Below, piece by piece: positions 12,012 through 22,667 of a stretch of DNA of 64,000 nucleotides. The stretch spans positions 124,001 through 188,000 of the forward strand of contig JAVBXP010000016.1 in NCBI GenBank assembly GCA_030824495.1, given 5' to 3'. Position 1 is the first letter of the stretch, and every line of letters starts with the position of its first letter. Below the pieces are notes generated by a model. The model had not been told where the DNA came from, made no database searches, and worked only from the letters and a program-made list of their open reading frames with translations. The stretch comes from a bacterium (GTDB taxonomy: Bacteria > Pseudomonadota > Alphaproteobacteria > Caulobacterales > Caulobacteraceae). The translations under genes and the position numbers were made by a program.

Positions 12012-13298
12012 TCAGTTCTTGTAGGGAATGATCACCGGCAGGGTCTCGAACCCGTGCACAAAGGCCGACCAATTCAGGGTCGGCTCACCGACCACCTTGA
12101 TCTCTGGGAAACGCTTGAGGATTTCTTCCCAGATGATGGTCAGCTGCATCTCGGCGACGCGATTACCGACGCAGCGGTGGACGCCAAAGCCGAACGACAT
12201 GTGCTGGCGCGGCCGTTCGCGGTCGATGATGAACTCGTTCGGACGATCGACCACCTCTTCATCGCGGTTGCCGGAAATGTACCACATGGCGACCCGGTCG
12301 CCCTTCTTGATGGTCTTGCCGCCCATCTCGACGTCCCGCGTGGCGACACGAGCCATATGCGCCAGGGGCGTCTGCCAGCGGATCGTCTCCGACACCATCG
12401 GCAGCACCAGGTCGTGGTTGGCGCGCAGCTTGGCGTATTGATCCGGGTTCTTGTTCAGAGAGTAGACGCTGCTGGAGATGGTGTTGCGGGTGGTGTCGTT
12501 GCCGCCGACGATCAGCAGGATAACATTGCCCTGATAGGTCGCCAGTTCCATATCGCGAGTGGCGGGATTGTGCGCCAGCATGGAGATCAGGTCCCCGGCC
12601 GGCTCGGCGTTGACGCGCTGATCCCACAGCTCCTGGAATGCACCAAAGCACTCCATCATCGCTTGGCCCTTGTGCTCCCAGCTCTTCACCGGCCCGTGCC
12701 CGGGCTGATTGGTGACCATATCGGACCAGTAGGTCAGCTTGCGCCGGTCCTCGAACGGGAAGTCGAACAACGTGGCCAGGGTCATGGCCGTCAGTTCCTT
12801 CGACACAAGGTCGACCCAGTCGAACTCCTTACCGATCGGCAGGGAGTCGAGGATCTGGCCGGCCCGCTCGCGCACCAACGGGGCCATGTTGTGCAGGTTG
12901 GAGGGCGCCACCGTCGGGCTGACCGCTTTACGCGCCGGGCCGTGTTCGGGTTCGTCCATGGTGATGAAGCCGGCGCCGCCGCGGCGGCGAACGCCCATGA
13001 CCTTTTCCTGTTCGGCCATGGCTACCTGATTGATCAGGGTGATCCCCTCAGCCGAGGAGAACGCCTCATGATCGGTATCGACCGCCATGATGTCGTTCCA
13101 CTTGGTGATCGACCAATACGGCCCGTACTCGCTGTCGGGCGTAAAATGGATGGGATCCTCGCGGCGCAGGCGCTCGAATACCGGCCAGATGGTGTCGTCA
13201 TAGAAGCGCGACACCTTGGCGGGGTTGAGCTGCTCCAGCGGCATGGCGGCGATTTCGGCTGCGGCGTCGGCAGCTTGGATTTTCGCTGAGATGTTCAT
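12012..13298 (-). CDS. cytochrome P450, CYP153-like alkane/fatty-acid omega-hydroxylase
   Basis: A 428-residue soluble bacterial P450. The start ATG has GGAAGGAAG five bases before it. The I-helix oxygen motif is GGNDTTRN, the K-helix ExxR is ETIRW, and the haem loop is FGFGVHRCVGNRVAEMQL with the Cys ligand. The C-terminal half, including PLAHMARVATRDVEMGG and the region after the haem loop, resembles CYP153 enzymes, which hydroxylate terminal carbons of alkanes and related chains. CYP153 needs a ferredoxin and ferredoxin reductase, often adjacent; neither is present here. A TetR gene is divergent across a 198-bp gap. P450 is certain; the CYP153 subfamily is likely. Confidence 0.9.
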   Translation of the reverse strand: MNISAKIQAADAAAEIAAMPLEQLNPAKVSRFYDDTIWPVFERLRREDPIHFTPDSEYGPYWSITKWNDIMAVDTDHEAFSSAEGITLINQVAMAEQEKVMGVRRRGGAGFITMDEPEHGPARKAVSPTVAPSNLHNMAPLVRERAGQILDSLPIGKEFDWVDLVSKELTAMTLATLFDFPFEDRRKLTYWSDMVTNQPGHGPVKSWEHKGQAMMECFGAFQELWDQRVNAEPAGDLISMLAHNPATRDMELATYQGNVILLIVGGNDTTRNTISSSVYSLNKNPDQYAKLRANHDLVLPMVSETIRWQTPLAHMARVATRDVEMGGKTIKKGDRVAMWYISGNRDEEVVDRPNEFIIDRERPRQHMSFGFGVHRCVGNRVAEMQLTIIWEEILKRFPEIKVVGEPTLNWSAFVHGFETLPVIIPYKN

Positions 13299-14090: not shown

Positions 14091-14187
14091 GGACCCCCGA
14101 ACGAATCCGTCGAGGATTTAGCGCTTAGCGGCCAACCGGGTCCGAGGCAGACTGCCGACGACAACTGCATAGGTGTCGGAGATCACC

Positions 14188-14514
14188 ATGTTCATCGCCA
14201 TGAATCGCTTCCAGGTGTTGCGCGGACAGGAAGCGGCGTTCGAGGCCGTCTGGCTCTCACGGGAAACTCACTTGGAGACCGTTCAGGGCTTCCTGGAGTT
14301 CAGCCTGCTGCGCGGACCCGAACGCGAAGATCACACGCTCTACGCCTCGCACTCGACATGGGCTTCGCGGGCGGCGTTTGAGGCCTGGACCAAATCAGAG
14401 GCTTTCAGGCTGGCGCACCGCGGGGCGGGCGACAACAAGCCGCTCTATATGGGCCACCCACAGTTCGAGGGCTTTGAGACACTGCAGAAAGTTGCGGCGG
14501 CGACCGCGCGCTAG
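14188..14514 (+). CDS. ABM-fold monooxygenase / haem-degrading monooxygenase-like
   Basis: A 108-residue protein from the ATG with GGAG just upstream (GTG at 14173 is an alternative). MFIAMNRFQVLRGQEAAFEAVW, the FLEFSLLRG strand, and the conserved Trp/Phe segment STWASRAAFEAWTKSEAFRLAH match the antibiotic-biosynthesis-monooxygenase ferredoxin-like fold, and more specifically the HmoA/IsdG-like branch that opens haem. Such proteins dimerise and need no flavin. It is 97 bp after the TetR gene on the same strand. The IsdG-like assignment fits the iron/haem theme (globin, TonB receptor) but is not proven. Confidence 0.78.
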   Translation: MFIAMNRFQVLRGQEAAFEAVWLSRETHLETVQGFLEFSLLRGPEREDHTLYASHSTWASRAAFEAWTKSEAFRLAHRGAGDNKPLYMGHPQFEGFETLQKVAAATAR

Positions 14515-14550: not shown

Positions 14551-15675
14551 CTACAAGCTGGTCCAGATCGCGGCGGCCATTCCGAGCCCACGTTCGTCGC
14601 CGATCGTCGTGACGCCCATCCGGTTCATGGCGAAGGCGTAGGTGGCCCGCGCGGCCATGTCGATGATGATCAGCGAGCCGCCATAGCCGCCCCAGAAGAT
14701 GCATTCTGGACCAGGCAGCGGGATCATCGGCGCCAGCCCAAACCCCAAGCCGAAGCGGGCCGGCATGCCGAGCACGAGATCGACGCCCTCGATCTGCGGT
14801 TCCAGGGCTTTGCGGCAACCGGCCTCTGACAGAAGGCGCTTGCCATTGGCCACCCCGCCATTGGCCAGCAGCATGTGGATCTGCGCGATGGACCGCGCAT
14901 TCCCCTGCCCGTTCACCGCCGGCATTTCCGCCGCCCGCCAAGCCCGGGTTCGGGTTTCCAGCGGATTGGTCGCCGGATTGGTCATGACGTTGATAAGCAG
15001 CGGACTTGGCTCTCCCAGGTCACCCGGAAGTCCAGCGGTCGGCGGGATCAGGTCGGCGACCCGCGCGTCGTGCTCGGGACCCATGCCGATGTGGAAGTCG
15101 GCCCCGAGCGGCTCTGCGATCTCCTCGCGGAAGACAGTCCCAAGCGAACGCCCTGTGATCCGCCGGACCACCTCCCCCACAAGATAGCCCTGGGTCGTGG
15201 CGTGGTAGCCGGGCGCGCTCCCCGGCTCCCAGAACGGCGCTTGAGCCGCCAGCAACCCCGTCGCCTTGTCCCAGTCATATAGGTCCGCTTGCGTCACAGG
15301 TTCGCGCCAGCCGGACAGCCCGGAGGAATGGGCCATCAACTGCCCCACTGTGACCCCCGCTTTTCCGTTGGCCGCGAACTCGGGCCAGTAGCGAGCGACC
15401 GGCGCCCCGAAATCGAGTTCGCCGCGGTCCGCCAGCAGCAGAGCGGTCAAGGCGGTCATCGTCTTGGTGGTCGAATAGACATTGACCAAGGTGTCCGCTT
15501 CCCAGGGACGCGTTCGGGCCTCATCGGCCCAACCGCCCCAGATATCGACGACGGTTTCCCCTTCGATCGTGGCCGCGAAGCTCGCCCCGACGTCAGCTCC
15601 ACTGGCCAGATTGGCTTCGAACAGGCCGATGACGGCGTCGAAGCGCGGATCACACGATCCAGATACGGCGGTCAT
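14551..15675 (-). CDS. beta-lactamase-fold serine hydrolase (class C / EstB-like)
   Basis: A 374-residue protein from MTAVSGSCD, with GAGGAG 10 bases upstream. The catalytic SxxK is in VYSTTKTMTALTALLLADRGELDF and the second motif (Y-x-x) is in PGYHATTQGYLVGEVVRR. The late GGYGG stands where the KTG box is found. There is no obvious signal peptide, so a cytoplasmic esterase rather than a true beta-lactamase is likely. It is 46 bp downstream of a TonB-receptor gene on the same strand, suggesting it hydrolyses an imported ester or amide. Fold certain, substrate unknown. Confidence 0.85.
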   Translation of the reverse strand: MTAVSGSCDPRFDAVIGLFEANLASGADVGASFAATIEGETVVDIWGGWADEARTRPWEADTLVNVYSTTKTMTALTALLLADRGELDFGAPVARYWPEFAANGKAGVTVGQLMAHSSGLSGWREPVTQADLYDWDKATGLLAAQAPFWEPGSAPGYHATTQGYLVGEVVRRITGRSLGTVFREEIAEPLGADFHIGMGPEHDARVADLIPPTAGLPGDLGEPSPLLINVMTNPATNPLETRTRAWRAAEMPAVNGQGNARSIAQIHMLLANGGVANGKRLLSEAGCRKALEPQIEGVDLVLGMPARFGLGFGLAPMIPLPGPECIFWGGYGGSLIIIDMAARATYAFAMNRMGVTTIGDERGLGMAAAIWTSL

Positions 15676-15721
15676 GAGCGATCGGCTCCTCGACTGAAAA
15701 CAGGTCTCTTGGGATCTGACA

Positions 15722-17980
15722 TCACCAGTCAACTCCCACAGTCACGCCGAAGGTGCGCGGCGCGCTGTAGATCTTCGTTCCAAAGCCCAGCCCCGTAAGA
15801 TCGATCACCTGGGTGAGGTAACGCTCGTCGGTCAGGTTCTTGCCCCACACCGACAATGTCCAAGGCGAGCCCTCGGACGACAGCCGGATGTTGCCATCGT
15901 AGCTCCAGTAGCCAGGCGTCTTGGCGATCTGGGTATTCTCCGAATCCCGGAAGGCGCTGGTGGCGTGGCTTGGCTGGAACGTGATCTGAGCGACGTAGTC
16001 GTTGGGCAGATGGACGTCATACGACGCCGATCCCTTGAAGCTGAACTTGGGAGCATTCGGCATCTGGTTGCCGTTTTGAACCACGCCCGCCGCGTTGACG
16101 AATTCGCCGAGCTCGGAGTCCAGGATCCCAATCGCGGCCTGAAGGGTGAGGTCCTGCGTCGGCCGCCACGCGACATCGGCGTCGATGCCCATGATGGTCG
16201 CCTCATCCACGTTGCCCAGGATCTGGATTGGAATGAAGCCGACCGTGGACCGCTTGAAGGTCTGGATGTCTCGGTAGTCGTAGTAGAACCCGCTCATGTT
16301 GACCTGAAGCGAGCGCTGCAAGAGCGCCAACTTCACCCCGAGTTCGTAGGAGGTGAGCTTTTCGGGTTCATAGGGCAGCAGCTGCCGCGGATCGGTGGCG
16401 AGACCCGAGAAGAACCCGCCGCTTTTCTGGCCCTGAGAGATCGAAGCGTAGATGAGGCTATCGTCGTTGGGCGTGTAGTTCAGCCCCACCGTGCCGGTGA
16501 TGTTGTTGTCACTGATGGTCTGGTCGATCGCCGCCAGGGTGAAGGGCTGGCTGCAGCCGCCACACAGCGCGCTGGCGCCAAACGTATTCAGGTCGAAGGA
16601 GCCGCCAGCGTAGTGGCGTTCCTCCCAGGTGTAGCGCAGGCCCAGAACGCCAGTCAGTTTCGGGGTGATGGCGTAGAGCCCATGGGCGAAGGCGGCGGCC
16701 GACTTCGTCGTCTGGTCCGCGGTGATCAGGGTGTTGGTGTTGAACAGCGCCTGGTTCTGTCCGACGGACGAGTATGTGTAGTGGTCCCACGAATAGAAGC
16801 CGCCCACGATCCAATCGAGCGCACCGGACTTCCCGCCCAGCCTGACCTCTTGGGAGAACTGGTCGATGGCGTACTTGTTCAGATAGTCGAGGATGGGCGC
16901 CGGCGTCGTATCGATATTGGCGTCTGTGCGCTGGATGAAGCTGCGGTAGCCGGTGACGCTGGTCAGGGTCAGATCGCCGATGTCCAGGTCGTTGCGCCAG
17001 GTCACGTCCCAGCCGTCGCTGTTGAGGATCGGCTTGCGATCCCAGTCTCCCTTGTAGGGATCCCCGTCGCGGTCGGTGTAGCCCAGGAAGTTCGTGCAGT
17101 TCGTATCGTCAGTGCGGCCGGCGAGAACCGAGGCGCAGGTCGTGAAGGTGGTGGGATCAATGGCGCCAAAGAAGGCGGTTTGGCCCTGCTGTCCTCGTTG
17201 CCGCAGTCCCTCGACCTTGAAGAGGCTGCGGAAGTCCTCGGTTGGGGTCCAGAGCAGCATCGCCCGAGCGGTCTGGATGCTCTGCTTGCCAATGGTCCCC
17301 GGCAGGAGCCGGCTCTCCCAATAGCCGTCCTGCTGCTCGATCAACTTACCCGACACCCGCAAGGCCAGGGTGTCCGAGATTGGCATGTTGAGCATGCCGT
17401 CCAAGGTGAAGGTGTTGTAGTTTCCGTAGCCTAGCTGCGCGCGGCCGCCCGCATCGTGGGTCGGCGCCGCGGAAATGAAATTGATAGCTCCAGCGGTGGA
17501 GTTGCGCCCGTAGAGCGTCCCTTGGGGCCCTTTCAGAACCTCGACCCGGTCCAGGTCGAACAGTTGGCCGTTCATCATCACCACGGTCGAGAGGAAGACC
17601 TCATCGACATAGATCCCCGCCGGTGGACTGGTGTTGCCGCCAAAGTCGTTGAGCCCCACCCCGCGGATCGTCACGACCGGCAGGACGCCGGGCGCGTTCT
17701 GCTTGATGTCGACGTTGGGAACGATGTTGATCGCCTCCGACATGTTTTGGAGGTGTCGCTGGGCGATAGCGTCGCCGGAAACCGCAGTGATGGTGGCCGG
17801 CACGTCCTGAACATTGACGGCGCGCCGGTCGGCGGTGACCACGATTTCCTCGATTGGCGGGGGCGTTGCGCTTTGCGCCATCGCCGTCTCCGCCGCACAC
17901 AGCCCGGCCAACGATACGGTGCAGAGAAGCGCACAGCGGCGCTTGGCCGCGAGGGCGGCGTTGGTGGTTCCTGAGTGCAT
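15722..17980 (-). CDS. TonB-dependent outer-membrane receptor
   Basis: A 752-residue receptor with signal peptide (cleavage near AAETAMAQ) and a TonB-box-like IEEIVVTADRR. The plug domain (about 55-165) includes VVTIRGVGLNDFGG and LDRVEVLKGPQGTLYGRNSTAGAINFI, and a 22-strand barrel ends in the usual aromatic residue (TVGVDW). It imports a scarce substrate in a TonB-driven way. The plug style is the one common in sphingomonads and Caulobacterales. The serine hydrolase lies downstream, and the double-TetR gene is divergent across 135 bp. Ligand unknown; local context suggests an organic compound processed by hydrolase or sulfatase. Confidence 0.92.
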   Translation of the reverse strand: MHSGTTNAALAAKRRCALLCTVSLAGLCAAETAMAQSATPPPIEEIVVTADRRAVNVQDVPATITAVSGDAIAQRHLQNMSEAINIVPNVDIKQNAPGVLPVVTIRGVGLNDFGGNTSPPAGIYVDEVFLSTVVMMNGQLFDLDRVEVLKGPQGTLYGRNSTAGAINFISAAPTHDAGGRAQLGYGNYNTFTLDGMLNMPISDTLALRVSGKLIEQQDGYWESRLLPGTIGKQSIQTARAMLLWTPTEDFRSLFKVEGLRQRGQQGQTAFFGAIDPTTFTTCASVLAGRTDDTNCTNFLGYTDRDGDPYKGDWDRKPILNSDGWDVTWRNDLDIGDLTLTSVTGYRSFIQRTDANIDTTPAPILDYLNKYAIDQFSQEVRLGGKSGALDWIVGGFYSWDHYTYSSVGQNQALFNTNTLITADQTTKSAAAFAHGLYAITPKLTGVLGLRYTWEERHYAGGSFDLNTFGASALCGGCSQPFTLAAIDQTISDNNITGTVGLNYTPNDDSLIYASISQGQKSGGFFSGLATDPRQLLPYEPEKLTSYELGVKLALLQRSLQVNMSGFYYDYRDIQTFKRSTVGFIPIQILGNVDEATIMGIDADVAWRPTQDLTLQAAIGILDSELGEFVNAAGVVQNGNQMPNAPKFSFKGSASYDVHLPNDYVAQITFQPSHATSAFRDSENTQIAKTPGYWSYDGNIRLSSEGSPWTLSVWGKNLTDERYLTQVIDLTGLGFGTKIYSAPRTFGVTVGVDW

Positions 17981-18013
17981 TCCATTCCCCGTTCCGAACT
18001 GCGTCGGCTTTTA

Positions 18014-18049
18014 GTTACGATTAGGTGCGTACATTCCGCAAATCGTTAC
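18014..18049. promoter_or_regulatory. candidate operator between TonB receptor and double-TetR gene
   Basis: The short divergent gap holds GTTACGATT (18014-18022) and AATCGTTAC (18041-18049), an inverted repeat matching at 8 of 9 positions, around a smaller imperfect palindrome TGCGTACATTCCGCA. Position and symmetry fit a TetR-type operator controlling both genes. No binding evidence is available. Confidence 0.4.
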
Positions 18050-18115
18050 GCTGTCGTCAAGGGGCTTTCGAACGGGTACAGTTCCGCCCCTATTCGAAAC
18101 TTCCCTGGAGCCAGC

Positions 18116-19348
18116 TTGGACGAGCAGAAGACAAGGTTGCGCCCCGAGAACCGGGAGCAGCAAATTCTGGATGTCGCCTCTCGGCACCTGAACACCATGG
18201 GTGTTTCGGTGGAGTGGTTCGGAGAGATCGCGGCCGAGCTGGGACTGACCCGGCCGGCGATCTACAAGTACTTCGCCGATCGGGAAGACCTGCTGTTCCG
18301 CTGCTATGCGGACGCATGCGACATGATGAGTGCACGTCTGGACGCCGCCATTCGGTCGACCTCCAGTTCCGCCGAGGCATTGTCAGCGTTCCTGAGCAGC
18401 GCCGACGACTTGGCGCACGAGCCGGCGGTGCTCAGCGAGATGATGGCCCTGCCGCTGGACAAGCGCGAGGTGATCTGGGGCCGCCAGCAGGCGATTGTTC
18501 AACGGATCGCCGGACTGATTGAGGCCGGAGTGGCGGCGAAGGCATTTCGACGGGTCGATGCGAGCATCGTGAGCCACGCAATCCTAGGACTGGTCAGTTG
18601 GGCGCCGATCCGCCGCCGATGGGCGCCCACCGCGAATCTCGAACTCGGCGCGATCGGATCGAGCGAAATTCTGTTTCACGGTCTCGCCGCCAATAAGACC
18701 GCCCGGATGCGGAAACTTGATCCCCTGGCGCCGCTCGCCCCGCCCCACGCCGATATCTTCAATAGGCATTCCGTCGACGCCGCCAAACGCGAAGGCATTC
18801 TCATCGCCGCCTCGTTGCTGTTCAACCAACGGGGGATCGGAGCGACCCGGATGGAGGATGTCAGTGCGGCGGTCGGCCTGAGCAAACGGGCGATCTATCA
18901 TCACATCGGGCAAAAGCAGGATCTCATCGACGCCTGCGTCGAGCGTGCCTACGCCCACTTCCTCGGTGTGATGGCGGCGGGCGAGCGATCAGACGCCTCG
19001 CGACTGGAAGTAGTCTACGCCGCGGTGCGCGACATCGTTTGGGCGGCAAGCGAACCTTCTGTCTGCGTCCTGGCGCCTCATGTCGGGTTTGGCTTGCTAA
19101 GCTTGGGCGAACGTCAGGCGGCTGTCGCTTATGCTCAGCAGTTGACGGACGGGTACCGCAAAATGTTCGCGCACGGCGTCGCGGAGGCCAGTCTGCGCCC
19201 CATGCCCATCGACGCGATCATCGCGAGTCTGCCCGGGGTCTTTTCATGGGCCGCCAATGGTCCTGAGCAAACCCCCGCGGCGCGCGCCAACATCGCCGAT
19301 GAGGTCGCCACGCTGGTCACGCACGGGCTGTACCGGGATGGCCCCTAA
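18116..19348 (+). CDS. double TetR regulator: two TetR DNA-binding domains in one chain
   Basis: A 410-residue protein, twice the usual TetR length. TTG is chosen as start because TGGAG is seven bases upstream and the TetR homology starts soon after; an ATG at 17975 would add 47 unrelated residues. Residues 14-62 form HTH 1 (REQQILDVASRHLNTMG...LTRPAIYKYFADREDLL). Residues 65-205 are a helical ligand domain. Residues 222-272 form HTH 2 (AKREGILIAASLLFNQRG...LSKRAIYHHIGQKQDLI), followed by a second ligand domain. The reading frame runs through without a break, so it is a real fusion. It is divergent from the TonB receptor. It likely acts like a covalent TetR dimer of unlike halves. Confidence 0.88.
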   Translation: MDEQKTRLRPENREQQILDVASRHLNTMGVSVEWFGEIAAELGLTRPAIYKYFADREDLLFRCYADACDMMSARLDAAIRSTSSSAEALSAFLSSADDLAHEPAVLSEMMALPLDKREVIWGRQQAIVQRIAGLIEAGVAAKAFRRVDASIVSHAILGLVSWAPIRRRWAPTANLELGAIGSSEILFHGLAANKTARMRKLDPLAPLAPPHADIFNRHSVDAAKREGILIAASLLFNQRGIGATRMEDVSAAVGLSKRAIYHHIGQKQDLIDACVERAYAHFLGVMAAGERSDASRLEVVYAAVRDIVWAASEPSVCVLAPHVGFGLLSLGERQAAVAYAQQLTDGYRKMFAHGVAEASLRPMPIDAIIASLPGVFSWAANGPEQTPAARANIADEVATLVTHGLYRDGP

Positions 19349-21704: not shown

Positions 21705-22607
21705 CTAGCCGCGCGCCCGGATCAGTCCGTCGATCACGGCGACGATCTCGGTTGGGCAATCTTCCTGCAGGAAGTGACCGCCTTTGAGGGTGACATGGGG
21801 CTGGCCCTTGGCGCCTGGGATCCGGGATTGGAAGGTCGCCTCCCCGCCGCGCGTGATCGCGTCGCCATCGCTGAAGGCGGTGATCACCGGCTTGTCGAAC
21901 GCCTCCAGCACCTTCCAGGCGGCGAGATTTTCCGCCACCGAGCCATGCTCCGGCGTCACAGGGACCAGCATCGGAAACTGCCGGGCGCCTTCCTTGTACG
22001 TCTCGTCTGGGAACGGCGCGTCGTAGGCGGCGATTTCAGCGGGCGAGAGGTCCCGGCCAGAGCCGCCGCTGACAAAGGCGCCGATGGGCATCTGCGGTAC
22101 GTTCTGGCTGATGTCCAACCAGGCCTTGAACCCAGGCGTCATCCCTGAACCGGTCGGCAGGCCGGTATTGGCGATCACCAGTCCCGCGAAGCGTTCCGGG
22201 TAGGCGGCCACCAGGCGCAAGCCGATGAGGCCGCCCCAATCTTGGCAGAAGAGCGTGATGTCCGTCAGGTCGAGCGCGTTGAGCCACTGGCTCATCCAGT
22301 GGACGTGGCGTTCGTAGGTGTAGTCGGTGCGTAAGGCCGGCTTGTCCGAGCGCCCAAAGCCGATCAGGTCCGGCGCGACGACCCGGAAACCTTTGGCGGT
22401 CAGCCCGGCTATGATCTGGCGATAGAGATAGGACCACGACGGCTCGCCATGCATCAGCAGCACGGTCGCGGCCTCGCGAGGCCCCTCGTCGACATAGGCG
22501 ATGCGCAGGGTCGTGCCGTCGGCGTCGATCACATCGCGGTAGTGCGGGGCATAGGGCCAGTCCGGCAGATCGGCGAATCGGTCGTCTGCTGTTCTCAGCA
22601 CCTGCAT
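21705..22607 (-). CDS. dhmA: haloalkane dehalogenase (alpha/beta hydrolase, subfamily I type)
   Basis: A 300-residue alpha/beta hydrolase from [11 protein letters not shown]. Characteristic elements are [17 protein letters not shown] (oxyanion Glu and halide-binding Trp region), the nucleophile elbow [13 protein letters not shown] with Asp and the adjacent Trp that holds halide, and the catalytic His in [10 protein letters not shown]. HGEPxWSYLYR is typical of subfamily I enzymes (DhlA/DhmA). It converts haloalkanes to alcohol and halide without cofactors. It heads a two-gene unit with the sulfatase. An inverted repeat lies 44 bp upstream of the start. Another ATG would extend it by 17 residues with no family support. 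The symbol follows the family name and is provisional. Confidence 0.85.
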
Positions 22608-22650
22608 GGCGTCCACCCTGTCGCGCCGCTCAACGGGCGGCTGCATATAT

Positions 22651-22667
22651 TGGCACAATGGGTGCCA
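22651..22667. promoter_or_regulatory. perfect inverted repeat upstream of the dehalogenase gene
   Basis: TGGCACAATGGGTGCCA has perfect 6-bp arms (TGGCAC/GTGCCA) and a 5-bp spacer. It lies 44 bp before the dehalogenase start, in the promoter region. It fits an operator for the dehalogenase-sulfatase unit. The cognate regulator is unknown, and the sequence differs from the repeat at the double-TetR gene. Confidence 0.5.

Follow-up and report, generated by a model that had tools for sequence, protein, structure and literature searches.

Regulators that carry two TetR units on a single chain are already known, and one of them, Mce3R of Mycobacterium tuberculosis, has been solved, a precedent that the earlier note on this DNA missed. 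According to the 2024 cryo-EM paper, which calls its own structure the first of a double TetR repressor, the N and C halves of Mce3R pair within one chain and together build a single ligand-binding domain (PMC11667970). Mce3R is also autoregulated (PMC2277422). A 2015 survey describes Mce3R motifs as departing from the classical palindrome and gives the TetR operator as 15 bp, bound as a dimer, and that of QacR as 28 bp, bound as a tetramer (PMC4482099). An engineered single-chain TetR (scTetR) is used as a design in a passage of PMC11603292. Among the matches listed in the open-licence literature, we found no natural double TetR besides Mce3R. Because this kind of protein is known through Mce3R, what is new here is that it forms a family, with an operator pattern of its own and a setting beside receptor genes.

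We observe a protein of this kind in the window, by which we mean the whole 64-kb stretch of DNA that was analysed. Its gene is a single open frame on the plus strand (18116-19348) that starts with TTG, stops at 19346-19348 and encodes 410 amino acids with zero internal stops. The gene and its parts are:

18116..19348, plus strand: double-TetR regulator gene (open frame and translation, two Pfam TetR_N matches, AlphaFold model)
18164..18301, plus strand: N-terminal head, TetR_N (PF00440, 32.6 bits, cut-off 24, genome search)
18680..18763, plus strand: linker between the halves, about residues 189-216 (model secondary structure, flanked by predicted helices 175-188 and 217-239)
18797..18937, plus strand: C-terminal head, TetR_N (PF00440, 45.8 bits, cut-off 24, genome search)

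Searched as a whole, the 410-residue protein gives two matches to Pfam TetR_N (PF00440; E 5.6e-20, 71.3 bits, cut-off 24). The TetR-type all-helical C-terminal domain is recognized by Pfam in the first half (TetR_C_24, 41.7 bits, cut-off 26.4), and the TetR C-terminal fold is present in both halves by structure, from the helices of the model and the VIA matches. A single comparison of the N with the C half gives 25% identity across 183 aligned columns (E 4e-10). The earlier note had described two divergent TetR units in one 410-residue chain, and the uninterrupted frame, the two TetR_N matches over the cut-off and the 25% identity of the halves bear this out; the two heads that it gave as different, TRPAIYKYFADREDLL and SKRAIYHHIGQKQDLI, were both found as quoted. 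This difference between the recognition heads is consistent across the family, with arginine at position 46 in 50/57 and lysine at position 257 in 48/57. The frame is open upstream of the TTG at 18116 as far as a GTG at 17975, and in an orthologue of 70% identity (L007) the TTG is shared and an upstream GTG is in frame too. We do not favour the longer start, which would span the entire intergenic region, and the TTG is kept in L007. A gene fusion or frameshift artefact was rejected because the two-unit layout is also found in other genomes.

The gene is one of a family, which the earlier note had likewise missed. The four named relatives (94, 76, 70 and 46% identity) all belong to Phenylobacterium, a genus of the Caulobacteraceae. 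The window's own genome has 51 TetR_N matches, ten of which are paired in five double-TetR ORFs, namely the window gene and four others, each on its own contig (C16, C57, C60 and C51). Using a profile built from 18 relatives (E 1e-60 or better), with the best candidates per genome scored and the counts therefore lower bounds, we found members in at least 38 of 101 Phenylobacterium genomes and in at least 6 of 398 genomes sampled phylum-wide, the window's own included. With the window protein as sole query (E 1e-30), 13 of 149 sampled genomes of the family Caulobacteraceae contain a match. In one Phenylobacterium MAG, two double-TetR frames (L034:6001-7182 and 12462-13181) lie within 7 kb of each other, the second divergent from a TonB receptor. 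On contig C71 of genome G000 (65143-65271, in L092), a TetR_N match opens a long frame whose continuation is unlike a TetR domain, either through fusion or through read-through of two frames.

We placed 26 N halves, 26 C halves and the 40 single TetRs of the window's genome in one tree, in which N and C halves separate (4 label changes versus a shuffled mean of 42.1). The C halves, except that of L004, form one branch of 25 rows with a starred support of 98. The N halves adjoin this branch with weaker support (22 rows together, 93, with those of L001-L003 apart), and all 50 family half rows stand together with a support of 83. Since N halves and C halves cluster separately, the duplication appears to be old, and these sequences are most simply explained by a single internal duplication long ago, after which both halves descended together. 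A recent internal duplication within the window gene was rejected, its halves grouping with the N and C halves of other proteins. The fifth double-TetR protein of the genome (L004:6387-7631, contig C51, 414 aa) has halves that join each other on long branches and not the family N and C groups; it may represent an independent duplication and was left out of the motif set.

Structure prediction of the monomer had been proposed as a check, and one chain is predicted to fold as a TetR-like pseudo-dimer whose best whole-chain match is Mce3R. The AlphaFold2 model, of one chain only and run on an 18-row alignment, has a mean pLDDT of 90.2 and a pTM of 0.89 for the whole chain. Foldseek ranked DNA-bound Mce3R (PDB 9b7y) first among solved structures (E 3.4e-8, TM 0.65 and 0.68), and VIA aligned the model with the same structure at Z 23.2 and rmsd 4.4 over 354 residues; none of the other 49 among the VIA matches listed extends beyond about one domain or exceeds Z 15.2. 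By sequence search, Mce3R is colinear with residues 4-278 (E 9.8e-9) and is not singled out, as 3vpr and two others rank higher. Against our best explanation, the family profile places three single-TetR structures ahead of Mce3R. Fragments of Mce3R carried too little signal to be placed in the tree, and a single clade of all tandem halves was not rejected (p-AU 0.776). Within one chain of the window protein, the N half would pair with the C half like the subunits of an ordinary TetR dimer, a pairing that would yield two different heads on one chain. A model of a single chain leaves room for halves swapped between chains, which counts against our best explanation.

The gene is divergent from a receptor gene that is accompanied by a hydrolase gene:

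15722..17980, minus strand: TonB-dependent receptor, divergent, likely target (Pfam PF00593, PF07715)
14551..15732, minus strand: serine hydrolase of beta-lactamase/esterase fold, whose gene overlaps the receptor gene at its end (Pfam PF00144)

The best NCBIfam match of the hydrolase, esterase/beta-lactamase LipL, is below its cut-off. Receptor and hydrolase are kept, with the receptor divergent, in all three orthologues of at least 70% identity (L031, L032, L033), and L034, a 46% relative, has its receptor match several kilobases off, beside another double TetR. The suggested survey of tandem TetRs near TonB receptors found a receptor divergently upstream in 31 of the 57 family loci. In 6 further loci the receptor is downstream on the same strand; in the remaining 20, L028 among them, it is absent from the examined flanks, which counts against our best explanation. 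Additionally, a relative of the hydrolase (41-44% identity) occurs within 54 bp downstream of the regulator in six loci. Given the receptor divergent in 31/57 loci and the receptor-hydrolase pair kept in the orthologues, the likely targets are the receptor-hydrolase operon and the regulator itself, which would make the protein an autoregulated repressor. The releasing compound would be whatever the receptor imports, or what hydrolysis makes of it, and from the neighbour genes our guess for the imported substance is an ester.

The downstream sulfatase and haloalkane dehalogenase are not favoured as targets: they are kept in place in the 94% relative L031, but L032 and L033 show no match to either next to the gene within flanks of about 6 kb downstream. 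The dehalogenase (window 21705-22658; 460.9 bits, subfamily cut-off 265) adjoins the arylsulfatase-like gene. The window also encodes an HmuQ-type heme-degrading protein (14173-14514; 160.9 bits, cut-off 130) and a cytochrome P450 (12012-13340) whose best match, solanimycin SolI, scores 645.1 bits, under the cut-off of 850.

We were able to identify a shared motif upstream of the family genes using a custom expectation-maximisation program, run with 60 seeds on the real set and 40 on each shuffle. From 83 ORFs, 57 non-redundant ones were kept, with up to 330 bp upstream of each; 34 of these regions have a site of at least 13 bits, and 23 sites remain after context thinning. Because the set holds related sequences, the motif counts overstate independence. 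The best 20-bp motif has a log-likelihood of 245.5, versus 97-106 in five dinucleotide shuffles. The strongest positions of its consensus, TTTTTTGACAnnTGAGTATG, are 4-8 and 15-18, separated by about one helical turn and giving two half-sites about 10 bp apart, of which the outer is TTTGACA-like and the inner GAGTATG-like. Sites over 9 bits are present in 39/57 upstream regions. The other 18, which include L028 (a 46% relative) and the same-genome paralogues L001-L003, have no site over 9 bits, a point against our best explanation.

The self-complementarity of the motif is 0.54 at its best shift, a value that 43% of column-permuted models reach. A single-TetR control from the same genus, analysed with the same program, gave the palindrome ATAACTGACCAGTCAGTTAT at 0.93, which 0/1000 permutations reached, so the method sees palindromes when they are present. 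This control comprised 30 loci from the 62 genomes with a match, two of them with short upstream stretches, and its motif was bound to look stronger because the loci are unthinned and more closely related to each other than those of the double-TetR set. With only 4 loci, another single-TetR control (L098) was not used. Several single-TetR orthologues related to L085 (e.g. L136, L137, L138, L141, L152) have one TGA inside the matched stretch. That such a protein might recognize asymmetric sites was the proposal of the earlier note, and it gains support from the structural match to Mce3R, the consistent head differences and a motif that lacks self-complementarity where the control is palindromic. 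From the whole-chain match, the heads and the motif, the two heads of one chain probably read an asymmetric site. The further proposal of the earlier note, that the protein might sense two ligands, gains no such support, and in Mce3R both halves contribute to one ligand-binding domain (PMC11667970).

We also found that the sites are often paired. In 21 of the 34 regions with a site of at least 13 bits, the best other site is on the same strand, 51-57 bp away (scanned 50-58), versus a mean of 0.69 and a maximum of 3 in 100 trials with shuffled flanks, in shuffles that preserve single-base content only. Three loci (L061, L062 and L070) have no direct pair and carry a second site on the opposite strand, 24-27 bp away and facing the first.

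In the window, the gap between the divergent genes contains the following predicted elements:

18014..18049, no strand: predicted operator block A (strong arm GTTACGATTAGGTGCG at 18014-18029, plus strand; weaker inverted arm at 18049-18034, minus strand)
18055..18060, minus strand: -35-like hexamer TTGACG that could serve the divergent receptor gene (sequence, kept in four orthologues)
18065..18100, no strand: predicted operator block B (51 bp from block A; minus-strand arm GTTTCGAATAGGGGCG, 13/16 versus the strong arm of A)

The family motif site in the gap (18010-18029) is the left arm of block A. After the window gene and the three relatives closest to it were dropped from training (53/57 used), this arm (best site at 18011) still ranks first in the gap, at 9.5 bits versus 3.1, and fifth of 127,962 positions in the window. 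The four positions above it are 38654, 16758, 2621 and 40684, of which 38654, inside the frame of a second TonB receptor, and 16758, inside the divergent receptor gene, are taken as chance. Of all 36-bp dyads in the gap, blocks A and B score highest, with arms matching at 10/16 each; in shuffles, one equally good dyad appears in 15% and two in 1%, for a geometry picked after inspection. The right arm of block A has the same dyad offset as the weak arm of the family. Across four orthologues, invariant columns number 33/36 in block A and 31/36 in block B, with 27/33 left of A, 11/15 between the blocks, 5/15 just before the start codon and 18/35 in the first codons. Allowing up to 3 mismatches, the 16-bp arm has 15 matches in the 4.15 Mb genome, among them the arm itself and the minus-strand arm of block B; a match with 2 mismatches about 53 kb away falls within a 229-aa open frame, at its 3′ end. 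By the family model the second site of the window is weak (best other site 2.0 bits), which speaks against our best explanation. Compared with the strong arm, a direct second arm at +51 agrees at only 9/16 positions and the inverted arm of block B agrees at 13/16, so the window departs from the clean direct-repeat pattern of the family.

The predicted operator carries some dyad symmetry at a scale of about 36-40 bp, and this too counts against our best explanation. Among the 23 thinned sites, an inverted copy of the outer half-site stands at offset 34 (z 4.7), making a weak dyad, and a direct copy at offset 31 (z 3.4), and two other standout offsets (inverted outer at 5, z 5.5; direct inner at -2, z 4.8) both overlap the core. 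Such symmetry could arise if the proteins were homodimers in disguise, each half pairing with its counterpart from another chain, with a central pair of heads on an inner palindrome and the outer heads adding contacts. The inverted outer half-site, the imperfect 36-bp dyads formed by the two blocks of the window and an inner inverted repeat within the strong site of L011 would all fit. However, the inner half-site has no inverted copy among its six best offsets, save for core overlaps and offset 37 (z 2.6), its best outside the core. The 20-bp motif is moreover no more self-complementary than permuted models, and the one-chain model fits both halves of Mce3R, a protein whose N-C pairing within the chain comes from cryo-EM (PMC11667970). 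We regard cross-chain pairing as unlikely. We prefer to read the weak inverted outer arm as suggesting two chains per operator.

The motif could also be a promoter element, or a site for another regulator, instead of the operator of the double TetRs. Sigma-70-type promoters have TTGACA as their -35 hexamer, TTGAC-like strings also occur inverted further downstream, and related upstream regions inflate the motif scores. However, the window site has TTACGA and was found without training on its clade, GTATG stands about 10 bp from GACA, unlike the spacing to a -10 element, pairing at 51-57 bp is no promoter property, and a sigma-70 scan of the gap found no full promoter, leaving this explanation slightly less likely again than cross-chain pairing. 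It is very improbable that a single head does the reading and the other half is a partner or ligand module with a remnant head, even though the N head scores less in Pfam (32.6 versus 45.8 bits) and the outer half-site is the part that recurs inverted, since both heads are over the Pfam cut-off, both recognition helices are conserved (R46, K257) and the motif has two strong blocks.

The one-chain architecture, the family, the synteny, the motif and the spacing are computed observations, and with them we consider it fairly probable that the window protein is a natural single-chain TetR pseudo-dimer of the Mce3R type, which represses the receptor-hydrolase operon and itself through a predicted two-block operator in the gap. 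As judged from the motif discovery, its two heads would read two different half-sites about 10 bp apart that form one asymmetric arm, predicted in the window to be GTTACGATTAGGTGCG. A second chain may sit on the weak inverted arm of each 36-bp block. Because the two blocks lie 51 bp apart in the gap between divergent genes, the protein would repress on both sides, holding down the TonB receptor-hydrolase operon and its own gene until a compound binds. We infer both the sharing of one block by two chains and the looping of the paired blocks.

More tentatively, and with the odds against it, we propose an old natural family of single-chain TetRs whose heads have diverged into a stable two-part code, with one chain reading the outer and the inner half-site and two chains placing four heads on each long dyad. 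Two such complexes, spaced by 51-57 bp or about five turns, would link the two divergent promoters, perhaps in a small loop. If true, this family would be a natural counterpart of the engineered single-chain Tet regulators, put to use repeatedly in the control of nutrient receptors. The family is large enough for comparison, since heads can be set against predicted operators and a partner gene recurs. The questions that it opens to testing are which half-site each head reads, how an asymmetric single chain arose from a homodimer that reads palindromes and whether looping is what the paired sites are for. Genetic circuits could also draw on its natural asymmetric repressors.

Mce3R (Rv1963c) and the window protein each join two TetR units, with two non-identical heads, in a single chain some 400 aa long, and Mce3R is the best whole-chain match of the predicted structure. 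The Mce3R site is nonpalindromic, the family motif found by computation lacks self-complementarity, and both genes have paired sites upstream of a divergent operon, predicted ones in the window. Mce3R has two 25-bp sites with a 53-bp gap (PMC11667970), compared with family copies 51-57 bp from start to start. The two proteins share about 17% sequence identity in the structural alignment, and Mce3R controls mce3 and lipid genes, whereas the window gene adjoins a TonB receptor operon. Ordinary single-unit TetRs such as DarR, KstR2 and PfmR fold like each half (best Z 13-15) and have the same kind of head, but they carry one unit per chain, and typically palindromic operators, where the window protein has two units. 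The engineered scTetR, reportedly the work of Krueger et al. in 2003, resembles the window protein in joining two TetR units in one chain. scTetR is man-made from TetR monomers, whereas the window protein is natural.
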